A DNA stretch of 26,398 nt from a virus, in IMG/VR virus record IMGVR_UViG_3300005606_000004, positions 1 through 26,398 of that record. One strand, written 5' to 3'. Made by a program: the position numbers and the translations under genes. Below, in pieces: positions 868 through 25,975 of the stretch. Within the stretch, counting starts at the first letter, position 1; each line of letters starts with the position of its first letter. The notes beneath the pieces were generated by a model. The model worked only from the letters and a program-made list of their open reading frames with translations, had not been told where the DNA came from and did no database searches.

Positions 868-869
868 GA

Positions 870-2456: not shown

Positions 2457-2515
2457 TTTTATCTCCTATCTACGTTGAAAGGGCTTAGCTAGATATTTAT
2501 CTGCTTCGCCGTTTC

Positions 2516-2968
2516 TTAATATCGTACGGTTACCGACATTTCCCCAATTCCTAAAGGAGCAATCACTCCTTCATCAGTACTAATACTATCAACTGTCATT
2601 GAAGTAGTAGTTCCATTAGGTACTACGCTAGTGTCGTACACTAAAGCATCGTTTTCATCGATAATCTTTTCGATATCTTCGAATAACAATGCTAGTTCTT
2701 CTTGAGCATCGTCTTCATCTTTGACATATGCTCGAATACTTAAAGTTAAGAATCTCCATTTAAATCCAGCAGTTTGATATTCTCTAGATTCATCTCCTGC
2801 AACTACGCAGAGTTTTGGATACTCTTCTATTTCATCTAAAAACTTTAAGCCTCCACTTACATTATTAAATACATTTCCATTGTAAGGGTGCTGTCCATTT
2901 ATTAGTTTTAATTTTGCTACTAAAGCGTCTACAATTTTTCTACGCTTAGTTCTATACTCAGTAGACAT
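2516..2968 (-). CDS. Putative tail terminator / tail completion protein
   Basis: A 150-residue soluble protein opening with a helical segment (MSTEYRTKRRKIVDALVAKL) and followed by beta-rich sequence: LSIRAYVKDEDD, an acidic helix around residues 90-105, and a closing strand EMSVTVRY. This resembles gpU/minor-tail-U-like tail terminators, which cap the tail tube and join it to the head. The start overlaps the stop of the neck gene by one base and the tail tube gene follows, matching head-to-tail gene order. A 47-bp spacer downstream contains no gene. The family assignment comes from fold-like pattern and position, not from a diagnostic motif. Confidence 0.6.
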   Translation of the reverse strand: MSTEYRTKRRKIVDALVAKLKLINGQHPYNGNVFNNVSGGLKFLDEIEEYPKLCVVAGDESREYQTAGFKWRFLTLSIRAYVKDEDDAQEELALLFEDIEKIIDENDALVYDTSVVPNGTTTSMTVDSISTDEGVIAPLGIGEMSVTVRY

Positions 2969-4500
2969 TAACCTCTCCTGAGTATAAATTTATCATTAAT
3001 TGTTCCCATCGCTAAGTTTCTAATACTTTTTGCTATTAAAGGTTTTGGGTTATATCCTGCGGGCCATTCCCTGCTTCCTGTATTTTCAAAAGTTTCATAA
3101 GGTCTTAGTTGATAAGTATATGTTCCAATTATAGAATTCTGTGCTTGTCTTAAAGAAACTAATTCTGCACTATCAGAAAATCTTCCTGTTTGATTTATTA
3201 GTGCTGGTCTGCCCATGTTTCTTCTTATTTCTGCTCCTAGTCTTCTGTTTATTCTAGTTCTAATTGGGCCTAAATTAAGTTCCTCTTTTCCTTTTTCTTT
3301 TCTTCTTTTTACTCTACCTTTTGCTGGAACTTTAATGCTAATTTTTGTAGTTAATGCTTTAGGGGCAGAACCTTTTTTACCTGCTGTTATTTTTCTTTTT
3401 GTCCTTTTTCGTACTTTTGGTTGTTTTTTAATAGTTACTTTTTTATTTTTAAGTCTCTTTTTAGGTTTAGCTTTATTTGTTATTTCTTCTACTACTTCAC
3501 TTACTATATTTTCATCTATTGAAGGGCTTCCTGTTGCACCAACTGATGCTGCTAATCCTCCTCTTCTCTTCTCTCCTTCAAAGTGTTCTGGAAGATTTTT
3601 TCTTAAAAATTCTATTGCACCATCTTCAATTAATGCTCTTACTCCTCCACCTAAATCTTTTCGTGCTTTCCAATCATCTGCTCTTTTGCTTCCTTGAGAT
3701 TGGATTACTCCGTTTACTGTTAGCTTTCTTGTTTCACCTGTTGTTTGTCCTGCTGAAAATTCTGGACTAAAGTCTACTGAAAATTTCATATTTGCTCTAC
3801 TAACTATGTACTCCAACATATTAACGGTAGTAATATTAACATCAAAAGATGCTTCAGGTTGAGCGTCAGAGCTAAAGCACTCTTTAACAAACTTTTCAAA
3901 CCCTGCTCTACCAATAGTTCTTGATTTATGTGAGAAGTCAGTACTATTTGAAATGTCTTTTGTTGCTGCTGCCGCCTGTGCAGATGTCAAAGTTTTGTTT
4001 GTTCTTCTTAGCCATCTATGAAATATTTCTTTTCTCAGTTCTCTGCATATTGTATAAATATTAAAAGTATTTGAAGCTCTTTCTGCATCTACTTGAAAAA
4101 TTAATCTATTTACATTACTGCCTTCCAGTATTGCAAACTCTTTACTAGTGCCTCCTGCTCCGCTTACGAAAAAATCAGAAAATTTTATTAGTGTTTTTTC
4201 TGCTACTTTTTTTGTACTTTTAAGTTTTACAGCTCCTGATATTAAATCACTAAAAATTTCTCCAATCACCATCTGGTATTCAAATTTTGTATTATTAGCT
4301 CTAAGTACTGCTACTAAATCATCATTTTGGTCTAATCCATTAATAAATTTTTCTGTTCCACTTACAAATGCTCCTGCAGATTCAAATGCAGTTATTTCAA
4401 CTATATGATTAAATCTTTTACTCTCTTCTTTTCTCATTGCTTCATCAGAGTGTTTTGATAGTAATCTTTCAACTTCATTTAGTACTACTTCTGCGCCCAT
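2968..4500 (-). CDS. Putative neck / head-tail joining protein with polybasic linker
   Basis: This 510-residue protein has three parts. Residues 1 to about 325 are mixed alpha/beta. Residues about 340-405 are a very Lys/Arg-rich linker (KPKKRLKNKKVTIKK and similar). The C-terminal 100 residues contain GRPALINQTGRFSDSAEL and YETFENTGSREWPAG, which resemble HK97-gp10-type neck proteins. It lies between the adaptor and the tail terminator and shares one base with each. The basic linker is unusual for a neck protein and might touch DNA in the portal channel, or reflect a fusion. The role is inferred from position and the C-terminal domain. The N-terminal part is unrecognised. Confidence 0.55.
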   Translation of the reverse strand: MGAEVVLNEVERLLSKHSDEAMRKEESKRFNHIVEITAFESAGAFVSGTEKFINGLDQNDDLVAVLRANNTKFEYQMVIGEIFSDLISGAVKLKSTKKVAEKTLIKFSDFFVSGAGGTSKEFAILEGSNVNRLIFQVDAERASNTFNIYTICRELRKEIFHRWLRRTNKTLTSAQAAAATKDISNSTDFSHKSRTIGRAGFEKFVKECFSSDAQPEASFDVNITTVNMLEYIVSRANMKFSVDFSPEFSAGQTTGETRKLTVNGVIQSQGSKRADDWKARKDLGGGVRALIEDGAIEFLRKNLPEHFEGEKRRGGLAASVGATGSPSIDENIVSEVVEEITNKAKPKKRLKNKKVTIKKQPKVRKRTKRKITAGKKGSAPKALTTKISIKVPAKGRVKRRKEKGKEELNLGPIRTRINRRLGAEIRRNMGRPALINQTGRFSDSAELVSLRQAQNSIIGTYTYQLRPYETFENTGSREWPAGYNPKPLIAKSIRNLAMGTINDKFILRRG

Positions 4501-5129
4501 TATTTATATAATTTATAGAAATCAAGAATCCTTTTTATGTGGTCAGGAAATCCTATATTTTCTCTTAGGCTGGTAGTAACTTGGTTACTAATCTGAGCTC
4601 CACTTATAGAAAGTCTTTCTTTTCTTTCATCTTTTAAGTAATATTTTACTAAGTCAAAAAGTGCTAGTTTTAAATCTCCAGGAGTACTTGCGTATCCTGC
4701 TCTGTAAACTACTTTTACTGCTTTTCTTCCTTTCGGAAAAGCTTTGTCAGCAGTATCTTCAGTTCTAAAAATAGTATCAGTTTCTTCGTCTACAGTATAT
4801 TCATATTTGCCACTACCATCAGAATTTTCGGATATGAGGGTCACATATGCACTGCCTTGTCCATCTCTTTCTTGGACTGAAGTTATAGTTACTATTGGAC
4901 TTTCATCTAGCATTATTGCAGTAGTATGATTATCTTTTATATCGAAGAACTCCGTTTTAGCAGAGCTATAAAAGTCTACAAACGAAGTTCCGCAATATGT
5001 TTTTACGGCTTGGCTCACAGACGGAATGATAACATTCAATTTCGCATCTTCCGATACGCCATTGAGCCCAGCAAAATCTTTGTACTGTGCTAATGTTATC
5101 AAATTTGTTCCGCCTTGTGATACTGCCAT
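4500..5129 (-). CDS. Head-tail adaptor (gp6-like connector)
   Basis: A 209-residue protein from MAVSQGGTNLITLAQYK. The early segment, an acidic-helical opening then IIPSVSQAVKTYCGTSF, and the later all-helical part (DLKLALFDLVKYYLKDERKE) match the gp6-like head-tail connector pattern, whose ring sits under the portal. I chose the internal ATG because 30 upstream in-frame codons would overlap the end of the capsid gene and lie across a stable hairpin. No strong Shine-Dalgarno is visible, so translation may depend on coupling to the capsid gene. It follows the major capsid gene and overlaps the neck gene by one base, the normal position for an adaptor. Confidence 0.65.
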   Translation of the reverse strand: MAVSQGGTNLITLAQYKDFAGLNGVSEDAKLNVIIPSVSQAVKTYCGTSFVDFYSSAKTEFFDIKDNHTTAIMLDESPIVTITSVQERDGQGSAYVTLISENSDGSGKYEYTVDEETDTIFRTEDTADKAFPKGRKAVKVVYRAGYASTPGDLKLALFDLVKYYLKDERKERLSISGAQISNQVTTSLRENIGFPDHIKRILDFYKLYK

Positions 5130-5138
5130 AATTATAAG

Positions 5139-5160
5139 TGAGGGGATAAGGCTCCCCTCA
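5139..5160 (-). other. mRNA hairpin between capsid and adaptor genes
   Basis: A perfect 8-bp inverted repeat (TGAGGGGA / TCCCCTCA) with a 6-base loop lies 15 bases downstream of the capsid stop codon and 9 bases upstream of the adaptor ATG. In the leftward transcript no run of U follows, so it is a poor intrinsic terminator. It may be a processing or 3'-end stabilising hairpin that keeps capsid mRNA abundant, or it may restrict adaptor translation. Confidence 0.6.
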
Positions 5161-5175
5161 AGCCATATCAATCTA

Positions 5176-7212
5176 TTAGTTAGATTTGTATTTAAGAGCT
5201 TGTACTGAGTCAGCACCATCGATTAGGTCTAAGAAACCTATTCTTTGAGAAGCCACTAGGACTCTTCTTTGGTTTGCGACATCGTAGTCAGATTCTACTG
5301 TAACACCTCTTAATCTAGGCATTACGTAGTTTCTTGGGTATACAGCTACAGAGTTAAATTTAGAGTGAGCTTTAGCAGCGAACTCATCACAGATAAGTAC
5401 TCTTGAACCAAATACTTGCCCGATTTCACCACTTAGCTTAGTAGCCATGTCACCAACTAAGTTCACATCTTGGAACTCAGCGTCGTTTAACAAGTCATAG
5501 TACACATCTTGAGATACTATGTAAACTACTTCACTTGGGTTAACACCATATTTACCCATTGCTTTTCTTAAGCTTAGTAAGTCAGCTGCAGTAACAGCGT
5601 CAGTAGCAGCAAATGTACCACTTGGCTGTGTAGTGTTTGAGTCGTTTGCCGCTAAGTGACAAAGTCCTTCAAAAGATGCTCCAGAAGTTCCGAATGCACC
5701 ATCAGCGTCATCTCCTACTAAGATAGCGTTTTCAATTGCTCTAGCATGAGACCTAACCATTGACTCTCTAATTAACGGAAGAATAGGCAAAATTGCATCT
5801 TCTTCAGTTTCATTTCCTATAAAGGAAGTAGAGATTAATTTTTTAGTTGAGAGTGTTCTCTCAGTCATATCGATACCACCCGCTGAACCTGGGTTGTATG
5901 CGTCTCCTCTCTGAGCTAAGTTACCATGTGGTGAACTACCACTAGCAGCTTGGTTAGCAGTAAATTCTGCGTAACCAGAGTCAGGTAGGATTGGAATGAT
6001 TTGAGTTGCAGAAGTCATTGGTATTTCTCTAAATAGAGGTGCTAATACTAATTCATTCTGGATATCTCTTTCAATGTTAGTTGAAACAACTTGCTCAAAG
6101 TCAGCAGATGAAACGCCAACACCAGACATGCTGTTAACTTTTTCCATCACTGATTTTGCAAGGTCAGTTTCAAACCCTTTTCCAGTAGCTAGACCGAGCA
6201 TTTTTGCGTCCATAATGTCAGCTTCAAATGCTTTTCTCCAGTCACTATTTCCTCTGTCAGCGAAAACCCTTTTAGATTCTCTCATAGCTTCTATTTCAGC
6301 ACTTCTGTCTTTTAATTCAGACTCTAAAGACTTAATTACAGTCTCTAAATCTTCGTGCTTGTTAAGAACTCTATCTTCAACATCAGAAATTAGCTTTTCT
6401 GCTCCAGTCATAACTGATGTTACAACTGTTTTCTGTTCTTCCTGCTTTGCTTCTTCAGCAGCCTTCACTTCAGCTTCCTCAACAGATTTTTCTTCCGCCT
6501 CAGCAGCTTCTTTTGCTTTCTGCTCAGCTTGTTGCATAGCAATTTTAGCAGCAGTATCTTCTGCTACTTGTTTTGCGAATGCTTCAAGGTCAAAGCCTTC
6601 AGGAGTTGTTTTATTGTCTTCAGACATATTTTTCTCCAAAATTGAGGATTTCTCCTCGCTTGGCTGCTCAATTTCAACAGCGTCTGCTGAGTCCATTGAG
6701 TTAGCCTTTACAAAATTCTTCTTAAACTCCTCGTAATCTTCCATATTATCAAAAGACTTTGCTAGAGAGAATGTTGCTCCCTGATTGCAAGGTACTGATA
6801 CTACAGAAACTTCAAAAAGTTCAGCGTCCTTTATCTTGTATCCGTCGGTTTCGGTCATATAATCAGCGTCCTTCACTCTGAAACCAACAGAAAAAGCTCC
6901 AAGGACACCATCTTTAATTAAATCTTTAACATCGCCCGCTGCTTTAGATATCTTTGCTGAGATATCTAATCCTTTATCGTTCACTTCTAAACCTGTTGCT
7001 CTTCCAATAGGTTTATTGTAATCGTGATTAAACAATATAATAGGATTATTTTTAAAGTTTTCTAAACCACCTTTAGTCCAAGCATCTGCCTCGATAATAT
7101 CTCCAGCTCTATCAAGACCATTAGTACTAGCAGACCCTTTAATGTCTATACTACCATCATCTTGCTCGCCTAAACTTTTAAAAGTAGAAGTATAATGAAA
7201 TATTTTATTCAT
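5176..7212 (-). CDS. Prohead protease - scaffold - major capsid protein fusion (HK97 type)
   Basis: A single 678-residue chain carries three head-assembly functions. Residues 1 to about 150 are an HK97-type prohead protease, with NHDYNKPIGR around candidate catalytic His63, GAFSVGF around Ser108 and the acidic strand AELFEVSVVSVP. Residues about 200-315 are Glu/Lys/Ala-rich predicted coiled coil, as in scaffold (delta) domains. Residues about 320-678 are the HK97-fold capsid protein, ending in DYDVANQRRVLVASQRIGF. In many phages these are separate genes; fused forms are known. An internal ATG at codon 196 has a strong ribosome-binding site and could make scaffold-capsid (483 residues) without protease. 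The gene follows a small ORF and the portal gene, as expected. Confidence 0.88.
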   Translation of the reverse strand: MNKIFHYTSTFKSLGEQDDGSIDIKGSASTNGLDRAGDIIEADAWTKGGLENFKNNPIILFNHDYNKPIGRATGLEVNDKGLDISAKISKAAGDVKDLIKDGVLGAFSVGFRVKDADYMTETDGYKIKDAELFEVSVVSVPCNQGATFSLAKSFDNMEDYEEFKKNFVKANSMDSADAVEIEQPSEEKSSILEKNMSEDNKTTPEGFDLEAFAKQVAEDTAAKIAMQQAEQKAKEAAEAEEKSVEEAEVKAAEEAKQEEQKTVVTSVMTGAEKLISDVEDRVLNKHEDLETVIKSLESELKDRSAEIEAMRESKRVFADRGNSDWRKAFEADIMDAKMLGLATGKGFETDLAKSVMEKVNSMSGVGVSSADFEQVVSTNIERDIQNELVLAPLFREIPMTSATQIIPILPDSGYAEFTANQAASGSSPHGNLAQRGDAYNPGSAGGIDMTERTLSTKKLISTSFIGNETEEDAILPILPLIRESMVRSHARAIENAILVGDDADGAFGTSGASFEGLCHLAANDSNTTQPSGTFAATDAVTAADLLSLRKAMGKYGVNPSEVVYIVSQDVYYDLLNDAEFQDVNLVGDMATKLSGEIGQVFGSRVLICDEFAAKAHSKFNSVAVYPRNYVMPRLRGVTVESDYDVANQRRVLVASQRIGFLDLIDGADSVQALKYKSN
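6625..6637 (-). promoter_or_regulatory. Internal ribosome-binding site and in-frame ATG
   Basis: GGAG sits six bases upstream of an in-frame ATG (Met196, MSEDNKTTPEG) exactly between the protease and scaffold parts of the fusion. A start here would yield scaffold plus capsid alone, giving the excess of capsid over protease that head assembly needs. The motif and frame are seen directly. Its use is inferred. Confidence 0.6.
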
Positions 7213-7214
7213 AC

Positions 7215-7475
7215 TTAGTCTCCTTTCTTTTTAGTAGCTTTTGCAACTGTTTTCTTTGGTGTAGCTTTTGGTTTGTTAATTTCAGCTACCATTTCAGGTA
7301 AGTTGTAATTTAACATGCTGACCATACGAGCCCAAGAGTTAAAAGTTCTTTTAACTATTTGTACTCTAACAGGAGCGTCATCTTGTGCTTGATATTCTGA
7401 AATAGAAAGAATTTTTCCTTTCTTTTTAAAATACTCGCCAAGAGTTGTTAATGTTTTTATTTTAGGATTCGCCAT
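7215..7475 (-). CDS. Small protein with Lys-rich tail, between portal and capsid genes
   Basis: An 86-residue protein, MANPKIKTLTTLGEYFKKKG, with a possible globular part to about residue 68 and a C-terminal Lys/Ala/Thr tail (PKKTVAKATKKKGD) that looks disordered and nucleic-acid-binding. No membrane segment or Cys motif. A Shine-Dalgarno (GGAG) precedes the ATG, which overlaps the end of the portal gene by 14 bases. The stop lies two bases before the capsid-fusion start. The location suggests an accessory head protein. I do not recognise the family. Confidence 0.7.
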   Translation of the reverse strand: MANPKIKTLTTLGEYFKKKGKILSISEYQAQDDAPVRVQIVKRTFNSWARMVSMLNYNLPEMVAEINKPKATPKKTVAKATKKKGD

Positions 7476-8676
7476 CTATATTCTCCTCGTCTTGTGGTGG
7501 TCTTCCACCTTCTTCGGGATTTACCGCAGAACCTGCTATATTAGCTGGTACTCTTGGTTCATCAAATCCATCAACTGGTTCTTTGCCTAGTGCTTCTCTT
7601 GCTTCATTCGGGCTAATAATGCCTGTATTAACAAGAGTTGCATAGTAGGCGGCTTGGTCTCTCAACTCAGGTTGTAACGCAGGAATTCTGGTTACATCTT
7701 CCGCAAGTTCAAAACCAAAATATCTTTCAAAAGCATATGCTACTTTTCTAACTATAGGTAATATAGTTTCTAAGTAATAAAGCCTATGATTAGGTCTAAT
7801 ATTAGCATTATTACCGCTATCCATAAGGATTGGTGGTATTCCTAGTGCTTCTAATATAACTTTTTCATTTGCTTTGCAAGATTCTTGAAAGTCTAATTCT
7901 TTAAAATTGACTGTAGTTAAGTTATCAACTTCCAGTCCACCGTCAAGAATTAAAGGTCTTTTACCTCCAGTTTTAGGATTATATCTCATGCTCCAAGCTT
8001 GTAACATTCTTTCTTTTATTTTTTCAGAAAGAGTATTTGGACTTTTTAATACTAATCCAGGGACTGCTCCATTTTTAAAGAAGTTATCTTGAAAACTTCT
8101 CATATTGTCCAAGAGAACCATTGTTCTGTACGCTGGTTTCAATCTTGGTACTCCTCTATAAATTGAATTAAAACTATTTTCTTTTACATGAATTATCTCA
8201 TTGACTGAATACTCTATCGTTGAATCAAATTCATATTTTTCTACAAAAGTTTTATCGTCAGTATAGATTTTAACTTTATCTGCTGGTAAATGGTAAAGGT
8301 GAGCACCATCGTAGTAGATAAATATGTTTCCATCTATTATTAAGTCAATAATTAAATTTCTTTTAAAAGCACTAACATCTTGAAAAGGGTTTGGTGCTCT
8401 ATTAAGTAGTACATCTACTTTTGACCTTCTAATATCTTTTGCTACAGGAGTTATTCCTCTTAATTTTGCATTAACTGAAAAAGGTATTTCTCCTACATCG
8501 TCAACTATCATGTTGACAGCTCTGTTTACAACTTCTAAATTTTCATAAGCAGACCTATAATTCGTTTTTATTTCTCGAGTATCAACAGATAATCCTTCAT
8601 CTCGAGCTATAGTATATTGAGCAGGATTTAACTTTTCCTCTCTCTCAATACCTAAAAATCTGTCATACCACGCCAT
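7462..8676 (-). CDS. Portal protein (HK97 family)
   Basis: A 404-residue protein of normal length for HK97-type portals, which form the dodecameric DNA channel at one head vertex. It starts MAWYDRFLGIEREEKL and contains features I associate with the family: an N-terminal stretch leading to VVNRAVNMIVDDVGEIPF, a mid-segment LKPAYRTMVLLDNMRSFQDNFFKNGAVPGLVL, and EALGIPPILM followed by a long helical stem. The Pro/Glu/Asp-rich C-terminus (NPEEGGRPPQDEE) is probably disordered. It overlaps the HNH gene upstream and the 86-residue gene downstream by 14 bases each. Confidence 0.88.
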   Translation of the reverse strand: MAWYDRFLGIEREEKLNPAQYTIARDEGLSVDTREIKTNYRSAYENLEVVNRAVNMIVDDVGEIPFSVNAKLRGITPVAKDIRRSKVDVLLNRAPNPFQDVSAFKRNLIIDLIIDGNIFIYYDGAHLYHLPADKVKIYTDDKTFVEKYEFDSTIEYSVNEIIHVKENSFNSIYRGVPRLKPAYRTMVLLDNMRSFQDNFFKNGAVPGLVLKSPNTLSEKIKERMLQAWSMRYNPKTGGKRPLILDGGLEVDNLTTVNFKELDFQESCKANEKVILEALGIPPILMDSGNNANIRPNHRLYYLETILPIVRKVAYAFERYFGFELAEDVTRIPALQPELRDQAAYYATLVNTGIISPNEAREALGKEPVDGFDEPRVPANIAGSAVNPEEGGRPPQDEENIDGES

Positions 8677-9034
8677 ATTTATCCTTTTGTTTTAGAACCC
8701 ATCTTTTTTGTTTCATTGCCGTGACTAATTTAGGTCGTTTTCCATAAATTGAGTGTAATCGTAAATGATGCATATGGCACAGCGTCACAGCTTCATCGTA
8801 AAGTTCTTTTTCGTGTTTTTCTATGAATTCTTCCCTTAACCTTAGTATGTCCTCTTCGGTCTCTATTTTCTTTCCTGTTTTCTTTAACCAATGCTCTAAA
8901 AGTTCTGTCAGTCCAAAGAAATGGTGAAAATCCAAATTTTCGGTCTCACCACAGATAAAACAGTCATTATTCTTTTTGTACCGTGATTTAGCTTTATCTC
9001 GAACATACTTAACTAAATCTCTTTTTAATTTCAT
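8663..9034 (-). CDS. HNH endonuclease
   Basis: This 123-residue protein has a Cys25-x2-Cys28 pair, the core DFHHF (His37-His38), and CHMHHLRLH (Cys86, His89, His90, His94), an HNH zinc-nuclease arrangement. HNH proteins next to terminase often stimulate terminase cutting in HK97-like packaging, and this gene lies between TerL and portal, which favours that role over a homing nuclease. It is the first gene after a consensus promoter, with a short leader of about 14-20 bases and only a weak purine-rich ribosome site. It overlaps the portal gene by 14 bases. The packaging role is inferred. Confidence 0.8.
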   Translation of the reverse strand: MKLKRDLVKYVRDKAKSRYKKNNDCFICGETENLDFHHFFGLTELLEHWLKKTGKKIETEEDILRLREEFIEKHEKELYDEAVTLCHMHHLRLHSIYGKRPKLVTAMKQKRWVLKQKDKYGVV

Positions 9035-9054
9035 TTATTTTATCTCTTTCAGAA

Positions 9055-9094
9055 ATTATAGCAAAAATCACATTTGATGTCAAGAGGTATTTTT
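9055..9094 (-). promoter_or_regulatory. Consensus sigma-70 promoter for the head gene unit
   Basis: Read leftwards: AAAAATA, then TTGACA, exactly 17 bases, then TATAAT. Both hexamers match the sigma-70 consensus and AAAAATA could act as an UP element. It lies in the 70-bp gap between the terminase stop and the HNH start, so it would restart transcription for HNH, portal, capsid and tail genes. Confidence 0.85.
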
Positions 9095-9104
9095 AACAGG
9101 GGTC

Positions 9105-10403
9105 TTAAAAACTTGTCGCTGTAGTTTCAAACGTATACAAAGCATATCTCATAGCATCAGCCATATGCGATGCTTGATTATGTTTTGGCTTTTCTTTTAA
9201 TAAATTAGGGTTGGGGTCCCACTGATATTGGTCTAGTGACATTAAAGATTCTCTACATTTTTGGTCTACAATAAGTTTTTTATTATCAACAATTCCTGCA
9301 ACATGACCAATACCATCTAATACTGATTTCTTTGCATTTATAGTACTTATATCATAATTTTGTGCAAAATCAAATCTTGTTTGTGCTGCTGCTGAATCAA
9401 TATAAATATAATCTATCTCCCACTTATCTATGAGTTTTTGTATTTCTATTGCATGCTGTTCAGTAGTTCTTTCACTATCTAAATACTCATCAACTAAGTA
9501 AAATTTTTCTTCGTCCCAATCATATGCCATAACACAAAAAGCTGTAGGGTCTTTATAGCCAACATCAAGACCTGCAAAAACATCCATTCGTGAAGTATCA
9601 AAATTAGACAAGTCTGCTATACATTCTTCATGATTAAATGACCAAACTTGACCTTCAAATACATTAAAGTCTGCCATATATTCTTGATTAAATTCTGCTT
9701 GTGACATTCCTTTTTGTGCTTCTATAATATCTGATTCAGATACTCTTGGGTTTTCATGCCAAGTTGCTTTTATAGAACACCACTCAGGAAACTCATCAGT
9801 AAATCCTCTATAATAAAATTCTGCAAAGTAATTATTTCTACCTCTAGGAGTTGAAATAAATATTGCTTTGGAATTATCTTTGTCTAGTGTAGGTCGTAGT
9901 GCAACATTGAAAGCATCTCTACCGTCTGTAAGTGCTGCCTCATCAAATATAATTAAATCATAACTTCTACCTACTACTGAGTCTACTTGATTTATTGAAC
10001 CCATACGAATTGTAGAACCATTTGAAAGTTCAATAACTTTATCTTTTGCATTATCTCTTACCATTTCTAAATCAAAATGTTTAATTAGTTGTCTTTGTAA
10101 ATCAAAAGATATTTGAGATAGAGAATAATTAGGAGACATTAATAAAACATGACTATTAGGTACTAAACATACTAACTGTCCAATTATATTTGATATATAA
10201 GTTTTACCTTGTCTACGGGCTACTGCCGCACACACAAATCTATATTTAGGATTACTTACTGCATTGATAAGTGCAGTTTGGGAAGTATTAGGAGTAACTC
10301 CTAGTAACTGCAGGTAGGATTCTATAGGAAGTTTGATGAATCTGTCGTCATCAAACTTCATTAGATAATCGGGGATTATATCTTTTCTACTAACTTCAAT
10401 CAA
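9105..10403 (-). CDS. terL: Terminase large subunit
   Basis: A 432-residue packaging motor. The ATPase half has a Walker A-like ARRQGKT (residues 62-68), Walker B LIIFDEA (150-156, catalytic Glu155) and a coupling motif ISTPRGR (183-189). The RNase H-like nuclease half has AGLDVGYKD (Asp280), YIYIDSAAA (Asp336) and HMADAMRYAL (Asp416), the usual metal-binding acidic triad. Length is normal. Its start overlaps the upstream 81-residue gene by four bases (ATGA type), so translation is probably coupled. The putative small subunit is unusually far away, about 10 kb upstream in the same direction, unless the 81-residue neighbour fills that role. Confidence 0.93.
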   Translation of the reverse strand: MIEVSRKDIIPDYLMKFDDDRFIKLPIESYLQLLGVTPNTSQTALINAVSNPKYRFVCAAVARRQGKTYISNIIGQLVCLVPNSHVLLMSPNYSLSQISFDLQRQLIKHFDLEMVRDNAKDKVIELSNGSTIRMGSINQVDSVVGRSYDLIIFDEAALTDGRDAFNVALRPTLDKDNSKAIFISTPRGRNNYFAEFYYRGFTDEFPEWCSIKATWHENPRVSESDIIEAQKGMSQAEFNQEYMADFNVFEGQVWSFNHEECIADLSNFDTSRMDVFAGLDVGYKDPTAFCVMAYDWDEEKFYLVDEYLDSERTTEQHAIEIQKLIDKWEIDYIYIDSAAAQTRFDFAQNYDISTINAKKSVLDGIGHVAGIVDNKKLIVDQKCRESLMSLDQYQWDPNPNLLKEKPKHNQASHMADAMRYALYTFETTATSF

Positions 10404-12737: not shown

Positions 12738-12777
12738 ATTATACCAAAAATATAGTTGATTGTCAAGACCTATTTTT
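12738..12777 (-). promoter_or_regulatory. Consensus sigma-70 promoter for the holin-like/terminase unit
   Basis: Read leftwards: AAAAATA, then TTGACA, 17 bases, TATAAT, all consensus. It overlaps the last codons of the adenylate cyclase gene and leaves a leader of about 40 bases before the holin-like gene. It would drive the mini-protein cassette and terL. Confidence 0.88.
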
Positions 12778-14542
12778 CAATGGTATAGATTTTAACTGGC
12801 TCAGATTTTCCTTTTACAGTTATCTCGTCTAAAAATTTATAAACAAATCCTTCAATCCTACTATACTCAGATATAATTAAATCAACATTATACTCCTTAC
12901 ATTGACTCTCTAACCTCGCAGCAAGATTGACAGCATCACCAAGAACACTATAATCGAAACGGCTACTGGAGCCAAAATTACCAACCACACACGGTCCCGT
13001 ATTAATTCCAGCTCCTGTTTTAATTTCATCAAGAGCTTCTTCTCTAAGTTGTTCATTTAATTCTCTTAGTGCTTTTCTCATTTCTAGTGCGCACTCTGTG
13101 GCTTTTCTTTCTTGTTCCTCACAATCTAGTGGAGCGTTCCAAAAAGCCATAATGCAATCGCCCATATATTTATCTATTGTGCCTCCATGTTTTAATATTA
13201 TCTCAGTTTGATTATCTAAAAAACGATTAATCAGAGTAGTAAGTCCTTGTGGATTCGACTGGTATTTTTCAGAGATGGGAGTAAATCCTCTGATGTCAGA
13301 AAAAAGAAATGTCATACGTTTTGTCACCCCACCCAATCTCAGTAACTTTGGATTATCTTGAAGTTTTTTAACCAGAGATGGGCTAACATAGGTGCCAAAT
13401 TGTTGCGAAATTCTGCGACGAAGTATAAATTGCTGGACGAAATTACGGAATGTAACAATACTCCAATAAAGAAAGCAGATTATAATTATGGCAGAAACGT
13501 CAAATAAGTAGGAAGACTGAAACAGATTCCAGGTAGTATATAATAAACCTGCAATACTAAGTAGTAAAGTTGGAACTGATAATATAATTGAATATGATGT
13601 AATTAGTAGTAAAATTATTAGTCCAACTGCAGTTCCCATCTCTGCAACTTGACCCCACTCAGGGGTTGATGGACTTGTACCTTGTATTAAATTATGTAGT
13701 AAATTTGCTTGAAGTTCGTGAGGATATTTCAAACCTGCAGGAGTAGGAACAGGATTAACTATTCCTTCAGCTGTAACTCCAAAAATTACAAAAGGTGCGT
13801 CAATAGGATTTTTCATAAACTCAGAAGCACTTTGTCTGTAAAAATTAACATTGTAATTTAACCAGACTTGAGCATTTGAGTCAGTATACATCGGGGGGTA
13901 GTTTGGGACTCTAACCCATTCTATACCCCCGTCTGTAGTCTTGATTTGATAGCTGGGGTCACCTACACCTACCCTTAGCATTTCAAGAGCAAAAGATGGA
14001 TATATTTTATCTTGACTTCCTACGGCGAGAGGTATACGTCTTACGACGCCGTCTATTTCGGGTGCGGTGTTTATTAGACCTACGCCTGTTGATAGATGTT
14101 CTTGTCGTAAAATGCCGGGATAACGATATAGCCATAGATGCGGATCACCTCCTATTTGAGCAGTACCAACATGTGGTCCTCCTTCATTGGCTTGTGTCGA
14201 AGCTACGAAAGCCAAGACAGCGGGGGATTTACGAAGTGCCGATGCTAATGTAGTATCGTGCTCCTTCCCTCTTATATCTGGGTCAGGCATCAAAACTGTG
14301 ATACCTGCTACACCAGAAGTTCTAGAAATTGCTTGAGCATAAAATGTGCGTGGTAGTGGATAACCTTTATATCCTTTTATAATTTCTTCATCTATGTCTA
14401 CTAATAAAATATTTTCATTTTGAATAGGCTCTTGACTCATCATTAGCCAATCAAAACTTTTTAATTCTAAAAGCTGAAAAGGATATGGATTCCAAAAGTA
14501 TAGTGCTAAAACTAGAATAGCACTACCTAGCCTTACTACCAT
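12770..14542 (-). CDS. CHASE2-domain adenylate cyclase (class III)
   Basis: A 590-residue membrane enzyme predicted to make cAMP from ATP. An N-terminal membrane segment (residues 4-19) leads to an extracytoplasmic CHASE2-like sensor (about 25-290; ILLVDIDEE, PLPRTFYAQ, HELQANLLHNLI). Three membrane segments follow (about 303-370), then the catalytic domain. Key residues are present: metal-binding Asp416 (LFSDIRGF) and Asp462 (KYMGD), adenine-selecting Lys458 and Asp536 (LGDAVNLAARLES), and transition-state Asn539 and Arg543. Lys plus Asp favours ATP over GTP. It lies downstream of curli-like and FecR genes and overlaps the preceding basic protein gene by seven bases. A full-length sensor cyclase is very unusual on a phage. 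Confidence 0.9.
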   Translation of the reverse strand: MVVRLGSAILVLALYFWNPYPFQLLELKSFDWLMMSQEPIQNENILLVDIDEEIIKGYKGYPLPRTFYAQAISRTSGVAGITVLMPDPDIRGKEHDTTLASALRKSPAVLAFVASTQANEGGPHVGTAQIGGDPHLWLYRYPGILRQEHLSTGVGLINTAPEIDGVVRRIPLAVGSQDKIYPSFALEMLRVGVGDPSYQIKTTDGGIEWVRVPNYPPMYTDSNAQVWLNYNVNFYRQSASEFMKNPIDAPFVIFGVTAEGIVNPVPTPAGLKYPHELQANLLHNLIQGTSPSTPEWGQVAEMGTAVGLIILLLITSYSIILSVPTLLLSIAGLLYTTWNLFQSSYLFDVSAIIIICFLYWSIVTFRNFVQQFILRRRISQQFGTYVSPSLVKKLQDNPKLLRLGGVTKRMTFLFSDIRGFTPISEKYQSNPQGLTTLINRFLDNQTEIILKHGGTIDKYMGDCIMAFWNAPLDCEEQERKATECALEMRKALRELNEQLREEALDEIKTGAGINTGPCVVGNFGSSSRFDYSVLGDAVNLAARLESQCKEYNVDLIISEYSRIEGFVYKFLDEITVKGKSEPVKIYTIEK

Positions 14543-20552: not shown

Positions 20553-21014
20553 TTATTTTTCTTTTAGCAGTTTTTTCATTAATTCTCCATAGTTGCCCTG
20601 TCCGAATGGAACTTCTGCGTTTATCTGTACATTATTTTGTGTTTTTATCTGTGACGCTTTTGCTTTTTCCAATTCAGTTTGAGCTTTCATCTCGTCCATA
20701 CGCATTTTGTGTGCTAATGCATATAAGTCTGCTAAATCTTTATTACTATATATTTCGGATTCTTCTGCCTCCTCCAGTTTTTTCTCTATCAATGTGTCTA
20801 GAGCTTGTCCAAGTTTAAAACGATTTCTATATCCTGTATCTAAAAACACTTGGTCTACATACGCTTTTACTTCTCTCTTTCCTAGAAACTCTGATACCTC
20901 TGCTTCATCTATATTTAAGTGTGCTGAAACTAACTGCACACTTCCAAGTTGAAGATAAGCATTCGCAATTTCTAATCCTTCTGGACTTATTCTAGTTGAT
21001 ATTTCTTTACTCAT
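20553..21014 (-). CDS. Putative terminase small subunit
   Basis: A 153-residue protein from MSKEISTRISPEGLEIANAY. Residues about 8-50 look like a helix-turn-helix with a gap between NAYLQLGSVQLVSAHLNI and EVSEFLGKREVKAYVDQVF, then helical parts (DTGYRNRFKLGQALDTLIEK and KDLADLYALAHKMRM) and a basic/charged tail. The order fits small terminases, with DNA-binding, oligomerising helices and a TerL-contacting tail. I start it at the second ATG because the first lies in the -35 box of the promoter. With this start the mRNA would be leaderless. The small subunit would be 10 kb from terL, which is unusual. Confidence 0.5.
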   Translation of the reverse strand: MSKEISTRISPEGLEIANAYLQLGSVQLVSAHLNIDEAEVSEFLGKREVKAYVDQVFLDTGYRNRFKLGQALDTLIEKKLEEAEESEIYSNKDLADLYALAHKMRMDEMKAQTELEKAKASQIKTQNNVQINAEVPFGQGNYGELMKKLLKEK

Positions 21015-22180: not shown

Positions 22181-22359
22181 CTGCTGGGCGTTTTTATTGT
22201 TTTTTAAAAATACTTAAAGTAGTACATGAAGATGTGTCCAGCGACAGAAAAAATTTTTAGGTCTAAGAACTGCCCTCCTTATAACTTTTTGTTCTTATAA
22301 CTTTTGGTTATTAAAAATATTTCTCAATTTTTTTATGCTTAAAACTGAGGTTTTTACCC

Positions 22360-22701: not shown

Positions 22702-23013
22702 ATGAGGAAAAAATTTATTTCTGAATTGGGAATGTCTGAGAAAAATAAATTAATATCTGATATTAATTCGGGCAAGGTTATGAAACTTGAAGATAAGGTT
22801 GCATACTTCGGTATGGTACTTGTTCAAGGGGCATTATTACCAAGCCATTTTTCAGGCTCATTTCCACATTGGTCTTTACCTTTCTTTTTGGTCTTAGGTC
22901 TATGTTGTTATCAATATAGAGCGTATGTTCAACGAGATATGGTTTATACTATTGGGAATATGACAGGAATATTTTTAAATGGCTCTATGCTGTTTAGAAT
23001 TTTTTGGTCATAA
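22702..23013 (+). CDS. Small multi-pass membrane protein
   Basis: A 103-residue protein with a charged N-terminus (MRKKFISELGMSEKNKLISD) and two or three hydrophobic segments: VAYFGMVLVQGALLPSHF, PFFLVLGLCCYQY and YTIGNMTGIFLNGSMLFRIF. A single GAGG ribosome site precedes the ATG. The three-helix layout with conserved-looking Pro and Asn positions recalls a one-bundle SemiSWEET transporter, but the similarity is weak. It is the first gene of the rightward cluster. Confidence 0.6.
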   Translation: MRKKFISELGMSEKNKLISDINSGKVMKLEDKVAYFGMVLVQGALLPSHFSGSFPHWSLPFFLVLGLCCYQYRAYVQRDMVYTIGNMTGIFLNGSMLFRIFWS

Positions 23014-23020
23014 GGTTCAA

Positions 23021-23050
23021 GGCTCGGCTACCTTTTTCAAATGCCGAGCC
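23021..23050 (+). promoter_or_regulatory. 5'-UTR hairpin H1 with TACC..TTTTCAAA loop
   Basis: An 8-bp perfect stem GGCTCGGC / GCCGAGCC with a 14-base loop TACCTTTTTCAAAT, 20 bases upstream of the next ATG and just ahead of its ribosome site (AAGGTGG). The loop is shared with two other hairpins in this cluster. Confidence 0.65.
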
Positions 23051-23070
23051 ACTTTTTGCAAGGTGGAATT

Positions 23071-23316
23071 ATGGAAGATGAACTTTTTATAAATTCAACT
23101 GTGTATGTTGTTCGCACTTATGAGAATGATAATACATTTAAAAAAGCATACTGTTTTATGAATGAAGAAATTGCTAATGCTACTCATTCGATGTTTCAAT
23201 CGAAAGGAAAAGCAACTCTTAGAATTTCCAAAGCGAAACAGGTAATGAAACAATCAGGTAGCAATGCTATCTATTTTTCTGATGGCTTACCTAGATTTTA
23301 TAATCTGATTAAATGA
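23071..23316 (+). CDS. Small soluble protein, rightward cluster
   Basis: An 81-residue protein, MEDELFINSTVYVVRTYEND, with mixed strands and helices (AYCFMNEEIANATHSMFQSK, ISKAKQVMKQSGSN). I use the ATG after AAGGTGG rather than one ten codons earlier, which lies in the loop and stem of hairpin H1. Its stop overlaps the next start (ATGA). No motif recognised. Confidence 0.65.
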   Translation: MEDELFINSTVYVVRTYENDNTFKKAYCFMNEEIANATHSMFQSKGKATLRISKAKQVMKQSGSNAIYFSDGLPRFYNLIK

Positions 23317-23528
23317 GATTTTTTCAAAAGAAAAAATACATTGAAACAGAATATGAAGAAAGGCACATTGACAATTTAAACAAAGCTGGTGTGCCTTATG
23401 TCATCAAAGAGAGGAGAGAATTTACTTCTCTTCTCTCAATGGTGTACTTCATATATTCAATCATTCTTGATTGTTTTGTATTACTAGGTATTGCGTACGC
23501 AATTCTAAATATCGATAAGATATTATGA
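23313..23528 (+). CDS. Small protein with C-terminal membrane segment
   Basis: A 71-residue protein, MRFFQKKKYIETEYEERHID, with a charged N-terminal half and one membrane segment (about 42-66, SMVYFIYSIILDCFVLLGIA). ATGA overlap with the preceding gene shows translational coupling. Tail-anchored topology is likely. Function unknown. Confidence 0.6.
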   Translation: MRFFQKKKYIETEYEERHIDNLNKAGVPYVIKERREFTSLLSMVYFIYSIILDCFVLLGIAYAILNIDKIL

Positions 23529-23539
23529 ATATAGGAGAA

Positions 23540-23563
23540 GGGAACACTCCTTTTGATGTTCCC
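23540..23563 (+). promoter_or_regulatory. 5'-UTR hairpin H2
   Basis: A 7-bp stem GGGAACA / TGTTCCC with loop CTCCTTTTGA, 19 bases before the next ATG. Its loop only partly resembles those of H1, H3 and H4, so membership of that family is tentative. Confidence 0.45.
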
Positions 23564-23582
23564 ATTTTGCAAGGAAATGCTC

Positions 23583-23738
23583 ATGAGCGAAGAAAAGCAA
23601 AAAGAGAAACGACCTTCTAAAAAGGTTGTAATCAGAGAAATCGTTGAACTCAACGATAGATTTGATTTTAATTCTCTTGAGAGAACAAATCTTGAAAACC
23701 TTTTGGTTATTAAAGATTTGCTTTTGAAAGAGAGTTAA
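23583..23738 (+). CDS. 51-residue charged protein
   Basis: MSEEKQKEKRPSKKVVIREI continues VELNDRFDFNSLERTNLENLLVIKDLLLKES, an acidic/basic helical peptide. AAGGAAA lies before the ATG. A start ten codons earlier would lie in hairpin H2. No motif recognised. Confidence 0.55.
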   Translation: MSEEKQKEKRPSKKVVIREIVELNDRFDFNSLERTNLENLLVIKDLLLKES

Positions 23739-23750
23739 TTCTTTTATAAA

Positions 23751-23815
23751 GGGGTTCGGAAAATTTTTCCAACAACCCCATTAGGTGTCTAAGAATGGTT
23801 AACAGACTTCTTAGA
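23751..23815 (+). other. Two intergenic hairpins
   Basis: GGGGTT / AACCCC (23751-23756 with 23774-23779) encloses a palindromic A/T centre. TCTAAGAA / TTCTTAGA (23788-23795 with 23808-23815) has a 12-base loop. The two occupy the spacer after the 51-residue gene, before hairpin H3. There is no clear U tract, so processing or regulatory roles are as likely as termination. Confidence 0.5.
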
Positions 23816-23827
23816 TGATAGGGTTAA

Positions 23828-23853
23828 GGGTGGCTACCCTTCTAAAGCCACCC
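23828..23853 (+). promoter_or_regulatory. 5'-UTR hairpin H3 with TACC..CTAAA loop
   Basis: A 7-bp stem GGGTGGC / GCCACCC with loop TACCCTTCTAAA, 17 bases before the ATG of the next gene. The stem shares its sequence with H4 and the loop follows the TACC-N-TT-x-AAA pattern. Confidence 0.62.
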
Positions 23854-23870
23854 ACCCATTGAGAAAATAT

Positions 23871-24047
23871 ATGACTGAAATAAATGCTATATATTGTTTC
23901 ATGTATGATGATGAACTATCTTTTGATAGGAATTATCAAATATGGAAAGCACTTAATGAAAAAGAGAGAACTGCATATAACTTAGATTTATATACAGATG
24001 ATAAATCTTTTAAAACATTTTGTGAAATCTGGGGTGATAAACAATGA
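23871..24047 (+). CDS. 58-residue protein
   Basis: MTEINAIYCFMYDDELSFDR then YQIWKALNEKERTAYNLDLY, acidic, probably helical. The ATG is preceded by GAGAAAA. A longer frame starts at TTG four codons earlier but ATG is preferred. The end overlaps the next gene (ATGA). Not recognised. Confidence 0.6.
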   Translation: MTEINAIYCFMYDDELSFDRNYQIWKALNEKERTAYNLDLYTDDKSFKTFCEIWGDKQ

Positions 24048-24280
24048 AAAAGGGTAAACCTTCAGACCCGATTATTGATTATCCTGAAATTAAGACTGCC
24101 GATGTTAGCACTATAAAAGATTGGCTTGGTTTATGTAAAACTGCCAACGATTTTTATGCTATCAAATGGTATATCAACTATTTAGAAGATGAATATCAAT
24201 TCTATTCTGATAGGGATAATTTCATGGTTATTCATAAAATCGAGATTATCAATTCTTATATTAAGAATTTCATTGTTTAA
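24044..24280 (+). CDS. 78-residue acidic protein
   Basis: MKKGKPSDPIIDYPEIKTAD leads to two helical segments (STIKDWLGLCKTANDFYAIK, YINYLEDEYQFYSDRDNF). It is coupled to the preceding gene by an ATGA overlap. No membrane segment or recognised motif. Confidence 0.62.
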   Translation: MKKGKPSDPIIDYPEIKTADVSTIKDWLGLCKTANDFYAIKWYINYLEDEYQFYSDRDNFMVIHKIEIINSYIKNFIV

Positions 24281-24290
24281 TATGGTTTAT

Positions 24291-24320
24291 TGGGTGGCTA
24301 CCATTTTCAAACGCCACCCA
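24291..24320 (+). promoter_or_regulatory. 5'-UTR hairpin H4 with TACC..TTTTCAAA loop
   Basis: An 8-bp stem TGGGTGGC / GCCACCCA with a 14-base loop TACCATTTTCAAAC, 18 bases before the ATG. The loop differs from H1 at a few positions, while the stem differs from H1 with pairing preserved. Confidence 0.65.
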
Positions 24321-24338
24321 TAAAATGAGGAATAACTT

Positions 24339-24776
24339 ATGACACTATTTGACGAGATAACTGAAAAGCTATCTAAGAAATGTTTATATGTTGTTTCACT
24401 TCCTAACTACCCAAAGGGCGAAATATCACGACCTGATACCATAACCAAGGGTGGTTATACAGAAGATGAACTAGAATATAGAATTTCAAAATTCAACTTC
24501 TCTGGGAAGATGAAAGGCAAGGAGAAAGATATTCAAATTGATTATCGCCATTTCCGATTTAATGCAGATAGCTTGGAAAAGCTATTGCACTTGGTTTTAA
24601 GAATTAAGGGCATTGAAAAGGTAAATGATAAAAATCTTGGCTCAGGTTATACTGAATGGTACTTTTGTTCTCCGAAACAAATGAACGCTCATGTATTAAC
24701 CACGATACGAGCCTATCGCCAAATCTTGAAAAAGAAAAAAGCGAAAAAGATTTTAAAGAAAATCAAGAAAGGCTAA
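24339..24776 (+). CDS. 145-residue protein with basic tail
   Basis: MTLFDEITEKLSKKCLYVVS leads to an alpha/beta body (RPDTITKGGYTEDELEYRIS; DYRHFRFNADSLEKLLHLVL) and a very basic C-terminus (ILKKKKAKKILKKIKKG). ATG preceded by GAGG. The basic tail suggests DNA or RNA contact. No family recognised. Confidence 0.68.
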   Translation: MTLFDEITEKLSKKCLYVVSLPNYPKGEISRPDTITKGGYTEDELEYRISKFNFSGKMKGKEKDIQIDYRHFRFNADSLEKLLHLVLRIKGIEKVNDKNLGSGYTEWYFCSPKQMNAHVLTTIRAYRQILKKKKAKKILKKIKKG

Positions 24777-24790
24777 ACCTTGCCAAAGGG

Positions 24791-24822
24791 TGTAAGGGCA
24801 ATTAATTTTGCCCTTACATTTT
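24791..24822 (+). terminator. Intrinsic terminator after the 145-residue gene
   Basis: An 11-bp perfect stem TGTAAGGGCAA / TTGCCCTTACA with a 6-base loop, then a short T run. It lies 14 bases after the stop. Partial read-through would feed the next two genes. Confidence 0.7.
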
Positions 24823-24847
24823 AATTAACTTTTTAACTTGGAGAATT

Positions 24848-24964
24848 ATGAAAACTTTAAGGACACGAAAAAAAGAAATAAATACTGAATTATATTTTTA
24901 TAGATATATGGCAATATTTATTATTGGTTTTTCTATTGGCTACTTTGTTGGTGGCTCAATATGA
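24848..24964 (+). CDS. 38-residue single-pass membrane peptide
   Basis: ATGAAAACTTTAAGGACACG begins a 38-residue frame MKTLRTRKKEINTELYFYRY followed by MAIFIIGFSIGYFVGGSI. The N-terminus is basic and the second half is one membrane helix with Gly-x3-Gly spacing. TTGGAG lies upstream. The stop overlaps the next ATG (ATGA), which supports its reality. Confidence 0.6.
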   Translation: MKTLRTRKKEINTELYFYRYMAIFIIGFSIGYFVGGSI

Positions 24965-25437
24965 AACCTTTACTAAGAAACTTTGATATTATTTTTTTAG
25001 ATATAGACGGAACTATTGTAAATTCTAATCATAGACAAAATGCAGAGGGAAAACCCAATGCACTTGACCTAGATTATTGGATTGAAAATTCTACTAGAGA
25101 AAATATTTTCAAAGATACTTTAATGGATAACCTTGTTTATTACATTAAGAAAAAATATCTGCATGGACATTATATTGTTCTTTGTACTGCTAGAACTCTA
25201 TCAGATAATGATATGGATTATTTGCATGATAAAGGAATACCTTATCATTCAATAATTAGCAGACCTGAGAATTGCACAACTCCAGACGCAGAATTTAAAT
25301 TTAATCAAATGAAAAAATTTCTTAATCTCAAATGGACTAAGAGAAAAAAGAAATTTCTTTATGACGATAAATGGGACAATTTGATTGCTGGTGTTAGGCT
25401 CGGAATTACTCCGAGATATGCACACGATTGGATTTAA
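24961..25437 (+). CDS. HAD-superfamily phosphatase
   Basis: A 158-residue soluble protein with HAD motif I FLDIDGT (nucleophile Asp14, Asp16), motif II around LCTAR (Thr76, Arg78), motif III around Lys113 and motif IV FLYDD (Asp135, Asp136), ending near residue 158. It is a small HAD phosphatase without a large cap. Phage members include the phosphatase part of polynucleotide kinase and nucleotidases, so a nucleotide or nucleic acid phosphate substrate is likely, though none is proved. There is no kinase domain. It is translationally coupled to the 38-residue gene. Confidence 0.82.
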   Translation: MKPLLRNFDIIFLDIDGTIVNSNHRQNAEGKPNALDLDYWIENSTRENIFKDTLMDNLVYYIKKKYLHGHYIVLCTARTLSDNDMDYLHDKGIPYHSIISRPENCTTPDAEFKFNQMKKFLNLKWTKRKKKFLYDDKWDNLIAGVRLGITPRYAHDWI

Positions 25438-25484: not shown

Positions 25485-25521
25485 ATGACCGAGCCGAGCA
25501 AATCGGCTCGGTCATTTTTTT
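25485..25521 (+). terminator. Strong intrinsic terminator of the rightward cluster
   Basis: A 13-bp perfect stem ATGACCGAGCCGA / TCGGCTCGGTCAT with a 5-base loop, followed by an eight-T run. In the other direction a second small hairpin and T run (AACCT / AGGTT then T6 near 25466-25485) would stop leftward transcripts, so the site is close to bidirectional. Confidence 0.85.
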
Positions 25522-25601: not shown

Positions 25602-25628
25602 CTTAAAGTATACTTTCTTGGCAAGATG

Positions 25629-25660
25629 TTATCCACAGGTTATCCACAAGTCTATCCACA
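25629..25660 (+). other. DnaA-box cluster, candidate replication origin
   Basis: TTATCCACA at 25629-25637 and 25640-25648 match the R1 DnaA-box consensus exactly. CTATCCACA at 25652-25660 has one change. The boxes are direct and spaced 11 and 12 bases apart, about one helical turn, so DnaA would align on one face. An AT-rich tract (25726-25784) follows and could unwind. No chromosomal dnaA gene is present. The exact boxes are seen; origin activity is inferred. Confidence 0.6.
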
Positions 25661-25696
25661 GGCAAACTCCAGACTCAGCCCCTGACCCACCCTGGT

Positions 25697-25781: not shown

Positions 25782-25810
25782 TTGACAATTTCTAATTCGC
25801 TGTCTATAAT
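25782..25810 (+). promoter_or_regulatory. Consensus sigma-70 promoter for the 46-codon gene
   Basis: TTGACA, exactly 17 bases, TATAAT, both consensus. It leaves a short leader of about 18-20 bases ending in AGGAGA before the ATG. This is one of the best promoter matches in the window. Confidence 0.87.
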
Positions 25811-25834: not shown

Positions 25835-25975
25835 ATGGAAAAAGCTAAAATTAAAAAACCTACTAAAAAAGAGCTTTACGCTCAAATCATCGCCAAAGGC
25901 GTAGACAAAGGCATCGCTGACAGCCTAATGAGAAGCAACATCGCTACTATGGAGTTTGTTCGCGACCTAATCTAA
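25835..25975 (+). CDS. 46-residue mini-protein with own promoter and terminator
   Basis: MEKAKIKKPTKKELYAQIIA continues KGVDKGIADSLMRSNIATMEFVRDLI. AGGAG lies before the ATG; a consensus promoter is upstream and a strong terminator follows at once, so it is an isolated, probably highly expressed gene. It uses more GCC, GGC, ATC, GAC and AGC codons than its neighbours, suggesting selection for expression or recent arrival. The basic N-terminus and helical rest could bind DNA. Not recognised. Confidence 0.7.
   Translation: MEKAKIKKPTKKELYAQIIAKGVDKGIADSLMRSNIATMEFVRDLI

Follow-up and report, generated by a model that had tools for sequence, protein, structure and literature searches.

Predicted H-type pseudoknots at the gene junctions of an early-side cluster in a T5-like marine phage: a family of candidate translational operators

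Compact H-type pseudoknots near the ribosome-binding site are known from the preQ1-I and SAM-II riboswitches. The nearest architectural relative known for the elements described here is the gene 32 operator of the phages T4 and RB69, in which an H-type knot in the mRNA leader controls one autoregulated gene, that of a single-stranded-DNA-binding protein (SSB) (PMC535899). In addition, the E. coli rpsO pseudoknot, which is bound by ribosomal protein S15, is an operator at translation initiation, and T4 RegA is one translational repressor that acts on about 30 phage mRNAs (PMC3014915). Our elements resemble the gene 32 operator in that they are phage mRNA leaders with an H-type knot of near-equal size on the 5′ side of the ribosome-binding site. 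They differ from it in having an L1 of 2–4 nt instead of 1 nt and a distance from S2 to the start codon that is 15–25 nt in nearly all members, compared with 39 nt in T4 and 45 nt in RB69. Moreover, they have no sequence kinship with it, they precede several unrelated small genes of one cluster rather than one autoregulated gene, and no repressor is known for them, unlike for T4 gene 32. Operators of the T4 gene 32 type are bound and repressed by the phage SSB, with UUAAA/UAAA repeats following the knot. The RegA regulon would be the functional analogue, with one factor and many early ribosome-binding sites; however, RegA sites are unstructured, A+U-rich and overlap the AUG, whereas what ours have in common is a fold that precedes the Shine-Dalgarno sequence. 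The likeness to rpsO, a single autogenous gene, is drawn at the level of description.

The window, by which we mean the whole stretch of DNA analysed (26,398 bases), is the complete IMG/VR contig IMGVR_UViG_3300005606_000004. Its minus strand holds the genes at 1-22114, including those of the portal, the capsid/protease and the terminase large subunit. The terminase and portal are 40–49% identical to those of T5-like phages (Demerecviridae), the protein at 20553-21014 (-) matches the terminase small subunit of these phages, and the terminase occurs widely in marine metagenomes. Judged by these proteins, the window is a fragment of a T5-like marine phage. A plus-strand cluster (22702-25437) adjoins the terminase small subunit gene just beyond it. 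In the same neighbourhood Vibrio phage VspSw_1 carries a DNA transfer protein and a deoxynucleoside monophosphatase, which are of the T5 pre-early gene type, and the 158-aa phosphatase-like protein at 24961 of the window is perhaps the counterpart of the latter. Solely from the position of the cluster, where T5-like phages keep their pre-early genes, we infer that it is pre-early. The gene 1 protein had no Pfam or PHROG match, and the gene 7 protein has a relative at 88% identity. For gene 2 the ATG at 23071 has a Shine-Dalgarno sequence, and the ATG given by the ORF tool (23041) falls within the hairpin of site 1. On the minus strand, the best-matching relatives of a 590-aa protein (12770-14542) come from SAR11 and OM43 phages, where they are annotated as adenylate/guanylate-cyclase-like; the protein is 66–69% identical in other contigs of the same group.

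A first-pass annotation of this sequence had described four hairpins, the one at 23540 as a weaker member, each 17–20 nt before a start codon, and all four were confirmed in position, stem and loop; they end at this distance from the ATGs at 23071, 23583, 23871 and 24339. The pairing it had noted as kept between the stems of sites 1 and 4 also holds (GGCTCGGC/GCCGAGCC versus TGGGTGGC/GCCACCCA). In all four, the 5′ half of the loop can base-pair with the flank immediately 5′ of the stem, which makes the predicted structure an H-type pseudoknot with an S1 of 5 bp, an L1 of 2–4 nt, an S2 of 7–8 bp, an L2 of 0–1 nt and an L3 of 5–8 nt (Table 1). The members show the predicted order S1, S2, S1′, S2′, with L1 and L2 both short and L3 longer, and 3 of 267 pairs over 22 members are non-Watson-Crick. 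By fold search the site at 23540 is a full member. The annotation had further proposed a free conserved loop that is read by a protein or an antisense RNA, and this part found no support, because the 5′ half of the loop (ACCNU; CUCCU/CGCUC at site 2) is one strand of the predicted S1. Its letters change together with those of the flank, its partner in that helix, and most of its conservation can be put down to the pseudoknot. What stood is that related RNA elements precede different genes, at four window sites and in relatives, and that their stems show compensatory changes. A common binding factor for the knots is possible.

Table 1. Genes and predicted pseudoknots in the early-side cluster of the window (S1 pairings also as RNA)
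Feature	Position	Strand	Description
Gene 1	22702..23013	+	103 aa; first of cluster; without pseudoknot
Pseudoknot 1	23012..23050	+	fold search
Pseudoknot 1 S1	23012-23016 with 23030-23034		AAGGT with ACCTT (AAGGU/ACCUU); L1 TCAA
Pseudoknot 1 S2	23021-23028 with 23043-23050		GGCTCGGC; L2 T; L3 TTTCAAAT
Gene 2	23071..23316	+	81 aa; downstream of pseudoknot 1
Gene 3	23313..23528	+	71 aa; without pseudoknot; 4-nt overlap with gene 2 (translationally coupled type)
Pseudoknot 2	23533..23563	+	fold search; previously 'weaker member'
Pseudoknot 2 S1	23533-23537 with 23547-23551		AGGAG with CTCCT (AGGAG/CUCCU); L1 AA
Pseudoknot 2 S2	23540-23546 with 23557-23563		GGGAACA; L3 TTTGA
Gene 4	23583..23738	+	51 aa; downstream of pseudoknot 2
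Pseudoknot 3	23820..23853	+	fold search
Pseudoknot 3 S1	23820-23824 with 23836-23840		AGGGT with ACCCT (AGGGU/ACCCU); L1 TAA
Pseudoknot 3 S2	23828-23835 with 23846-23853		GGGTGGCT; L3 TCTAA
Gene 5	23871..24047	+	58 aa; downstream of pseudoknot 3
Gene 6	24044..24280	+	78 aa; without pseudoknot; 4-nt overlap with gene 5
Pseudoknot 4	24282..24320	+	fold search
Pseudoknot 4 S1	24282-24286 with 24300-24304		ATGGT with ACCAT (AUGGU/ACCAU); L1 TTAT
Pseudoknot 4 S2	24291-24298 with 24313-24320		TGGGTGGC; L2 T; L3 TTTCAAAC
Gene 7	24339..24776	+	145 aa; T5orf172/MUG113 domain (GIY-YIG-like family; Pfam); downstream of pseudoknot 4

A search by fold only, using the geometry and no sequence motif, gave the four sites and nothing else on both strands of the 26.4 kb. 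In 150 dinucleotide-shuffled windows there were on average 0.09 matches at the same score, with a maximum of 2, and the chance of four such sites is ∼3e-6 (Poisson, from 0.09 per shuffled window). The same search recovers the experimentally established gene 32 knots of T4, [UGCC]A(GCUAUGA)[GGUA]AAGUG(UCAUAGC), and RB69, [AUACC]A(GCUACGA)[GGUAU]AAGUG(UCGUAGC). The summed stacking of S1, which describes S1 alone and not the stability of the whole knot, is -8.5 to -10.8 kcal/mol in the window knots, compared with -8.8 in T4 and -7.9 kcal/mol in RB69. This similar strength indicates that S1 helices like those of the window are strong enough in nature.

The whole cluster was found in one relative, L003 (IMGVR_3300030101_003177), and both T5-like records that carry the cluster are fragments. 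The fold search of L003 gave exactly the four orthologous sites. Comparison of the four site pairs gave 4 double compensatory changes in S1 and 11 in S2, 15 in all; one further pair changed to a wobble and none was broken, and hence both predicted helices are backed by compensatory changes. Site 1 of L003 (at 4698) reads AGGGU/ACCUU in S1 and differs in S2 by two compensatory changes. At site 2, S2 is identical and S1 reads GAGCG/CGCUC instead of AGGAG/CUCCU, with three compensatory pairs, which is the clearest comparative case for covariation of S1. Site 3 has the S1 AAGGU/ACCUU (one double change) and five compensatory changes in S2, and site 4 has an identical S1 and four compensatory changes in S2. 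The variable pair of N-GGU/ACC-N in S1 is A-U in 7 cases, U-A in 7, G-C in 2 and G-U in 1. The first-pass annotation had named a lack of further members or of compensatory changes in relatives as what would refute it, and the outcome was in its favour, with compensatory changes in L003 and further members there and in more phages. We also considered and rejected a promoter reading of TANGGTT, since there is no consistent -35 and the covariation indicates RNA pairing. Plain hairpins, with an S1 complementarity that is due to chance or to a nested alternative, would be compatible with a per-site chance of 1–10% for a 5-bp S1 (12-nt flank shuffled) and with site 3, where bases 3′ of S2 offer a second partner for the 5′ strand of S1 (window, GGGU/ACCC; L003, AGGUU/AACCU) and minimum-energy folding prefers this nested rival. 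However, S1 is present at 8/8 sites of the window and L003 (the product of chances for the window only is ∼1e-6), co-varies at sites 2 and 3 and is repeated in independent phages, and we therefore regard plain hairpins as extremely improbable.

A covariance model of the hairpin only, built from sites 1 and 4 of the window and L003, found both copies of the site 3 hairpin, on which it had not been trained (E ∼2e-6 and 6e-5). In the long contigs of relatives the model gave just weak matches outside the window and L003, and these led to an element at the capsid/head-completion junction that is described below. Covariance models cannot hold pseudoknots and hence may miss such a class; here the model saw a hairpin with an oddly conserved loop. 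None of the 4227 Rfam models overlapped the sites, with E up to 5 for the window and up to 3 for four other contigs. In the open-access literature, with subscription papers outside the scope, we found no description of such a pseudoknot family. The loop pattern GGCTACCNTTNTNAAANGCC was also searched in IMG/VR, and its matches besides L003 were in other contexts and looked like chance.

In other phages there are ∼16 more copies, usually 16–25 nt before a start codon. We gathered 77 contigs by their terminase small subunit and inspected the early side. With a search that was agnostic to S1, a strong knot was present before 12/539 starts on the early side, compared with 4/1302 on the other side and 0/243 on the opposite strand, and a few of the 12 early-side matches are likely to be due to chance. 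Convincing members are in L137, L158, L159, L160, L163, L164 (three copies) and L197. A pseudoknot likewise precedes the homologue of gene 4 in L003 and in L159; that of L159 (S1 UAAGGU/ACCUUA, S2 GGGGUAGC) is in the same place with other letters. The stretches of Vibrio phage VspSw_1 and Serratia phage Slocum had no clear member. Patterns with fixed S1 and L1 and free S2 gave 135 distinct matches in viral contigs; S2 closes in 9 of these (1.6 in the shuffled arm), and 7 of the 9 precede an ATG (0.85 in the shuffled arm). Members found in this way had the letters GGU and UAA fixed, so that the apparent consensus is biased. Among them are members in an 87-kb phage, one cluster of which has several, in a 214-kb contig, in L416/L421, and in the contigs L250 and L299, the leaders of which look, in our reading only, like those of Bacteroidetes phages. 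A scan of a genome collection for one subtype gave 7 matches, and S2 closes in 0 of them. As a side observation, positions 1-9600 of the 87-kb phage (L389) hold a cluster of small genes with at least 5 pseudoknot-like leaders sharing UACC...AAAAU loops, and several of these genes encode repetitive hexapeptide/beta-solenoid proteins.

The position of the knots relative to genes is also regular. The stop codon of gene 1 (23011-23013) overlaps S1 of pseudoknot 1, pseudoknot 4 starts just 3′ of the gene 6 stop codon, and in 15/24 members the upstream stop codon lies at −11 to +5 nt relative to where the S1 strand begins. A stop codon inside L1 (UAA) was tried as a general feature and dropped, as it holds for L416 only. 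Among genes 1–7 a knot is present at every non-overlapping junction, and none at the 4-nt overlaps (2/3 and 5/6). A knot at a cistron junction might block ribonucleases and give the cistrons separate half-lives, in which case mRNA processing or stability, and not translation, would be the direct target. This would be in line with the knot directly after the upstream stop codon in the 15 members, with the GC-rich S2 in an AT-rich genome, and with the knot of L250/L299, which seems by eye to be near the transcript 5′-end (promoter-like sequence). Nevertheless, a constant distance of 15–25 nt to the next start is unexpected for a pure nuclease barrier, and a plain hairpin would suffice for it, yet covariation preserves S1; we consider such a role unlikely. 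Slightly more doubtful is a ligand-free insulator or ribosome gate, which would keep the downstream ribosome-binding site open or stop ribosomes coming from the upstream stop codon. The location between stop codon and Shine-Dalgarno sequence and the coupled, overlapping junctions without knots fit this proposal, but spacers of ∼20 nt already abolish termination–reinitiation coupling in E. coli and Haloferax (PMC10666635), and hence a knot is unnecessary for insulation. A general switch between the loop and the Shine-Dalgarno sequence was rejected as well, because the complementarity, seen by eye at several sites, was inconsistent (C/U-rich loops).

A compact H-type fold at the ribosome-binding site could also be a small-molecule aptamer of the preQ1-I/SAM-II class that is reused before several early genes. 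The letters that recur in unrelated phages, UAA often in L1 and AA often at the 3′ end of L3, would suit an aptamer, and part of the members was found with patterns that fix these letters. However, unlike preQ1-I and SAM-II, the sites match no riboswitch or other family of Rfam, the letters of S1 and S2 are freely replaced, and the downstream genes have no metabolic pathway in common. At site 2 S1 is fully replaced (AGGAG to GAGCG), which leaves few constant unpaired bases. A riboswitch is therefore very unlikely.

The element to which the weak covariance-model matches led is a GC-rich hairpin at the junction of the capsid gene and the next head gene in 29 distinct relatives including the window (5150-5200, -), followed by U's in most. 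By our count an upstream GGY matches the loop RCC in 18/29 of these hairpins (8 GGU/ACC and 10 GGC/GCC); 7/29 match at GG/CC alone and 4/29 not at all, and in some relatives there is a GNRA-type loop without GGY-RCC pairing. A T5-like phage has an annotated terminator at this junction. We interpret the element as a terminator in which a short S1 is optional, outside the pseudoknot family. Its terminator-like hairpin, the S1 of which is similar but weaker, the annotated terminator, and the U4–U5 after sites 1 and 2 might suggest that the knots themselves are intrinsic terminators or attenuators between genes. This is contradicted by the missing U-run in 17/24 members (it is present in 7/24), with sites 3 and 4 lacking it in the window and L003 alike. 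Moreover, the cluster has separate terminators of ordinary type at 24787 and 25485, and S1 would be irrelevant to termination, which makes terminators highly improbable.

Comparison of sequences establishes the two predicted helices, their covariation, their position and their recurrence across phages. We favour, with a probability of about 45%, the reading that each site is a cis-acting translational operator at an independently initiated gene, on three grounds, namely the preservation of S1 next to an already strong S2, the knot-to-start-codon distance, and the fact that the nearest architectural relative known is an operator; from these we infer action at translation initiation. The knot would be a spacer element acting in cis between the end of one cistron and the next ribosome-binding site, where the folded form would lie against the 30S footprint at its 5′ edge and might, by itself or together with a factor that binds it, set or shut off initiation at its gene. 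The T4 gene 32 pseudoknot is a model for such control of initiation. With the same fold at every non-overlapping junction one factor could tune the whole set, and the overlapping genes 3 and 6 would follow by translational coupling. Since the knots precede unrelated genes, autoregulation of the gene 32 type cannot account for all of them. By Pfam and PHROG none of the window genes behind the four knots is an SSB gene, and the arrangement of gene 32, a knot that controls its own SSB gene, fits L416/L421 alone, where the knot precedes an Enc34-type ssDNA-binding-protein gene (Pfam E 4e-67).

More tentatively, these knots may form a phage pseudoknot regulon, that is, widespread uncatalogued operators before unrelated genes, with one phage or host factor switching an early block at translation. 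If true, this regulon would extend the gene 32 type of operator from one gene to many. A blastp of the window or L003 against the unrelated 87-kb phage gave no candidate binding factor, with zero proteins in common where the T5-like records are fragments; hence a host factor, a diverged phage protein and no factor at all are each possible. A single cluster uses this fold at four of its junctions; the fold persists despite complete turnover of its letters and recurs in unrelated phages, and if it is an operator, pseudoknots would be a general phage control at ribosome-binding sites.

Several other features of the cluster were observed. In its leader (22215-22310) the elements AAAGTAGTACATGAAG...GTGTCCAGCGA...CTTATAACTTTTTGTTCTTATAACTTT are strongly conserved between the window and L003, and TTATAACTTT is repeated. 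A further hairpin upstream of pseudoknot 3 (23788-23813) has a loop, TGGTTAACAGAC, that is identical in L003 and a stem that differs (CTAAGAA/TTCTTAG versus GCTAGGAA/TTTCTAGC in L003); its GGTTAA could compete for the loop of pseudoknot 3. The strong terminator at 25485-25515 has the stem GACCGAGCCGA/TCGGCTCGGTC with a GGCTCGG/CCGAGCC core that is common to it, S2 of pseudoknot 1 and S2 of L003 pseudoknot 4. At 25627-25661 there are two TTATCCACA repeats and one CTATCCACA repeat that are DnaA-box-like, with similar repeats at ∼7346-7370 of L003. Finally, perfect TTGACA-17-TATAAT promoters face each other at 25782 (+) and 26082 (-), and between them a 46-aa protein at 25835, followed by a terminator, resembles gene 4 by eye.
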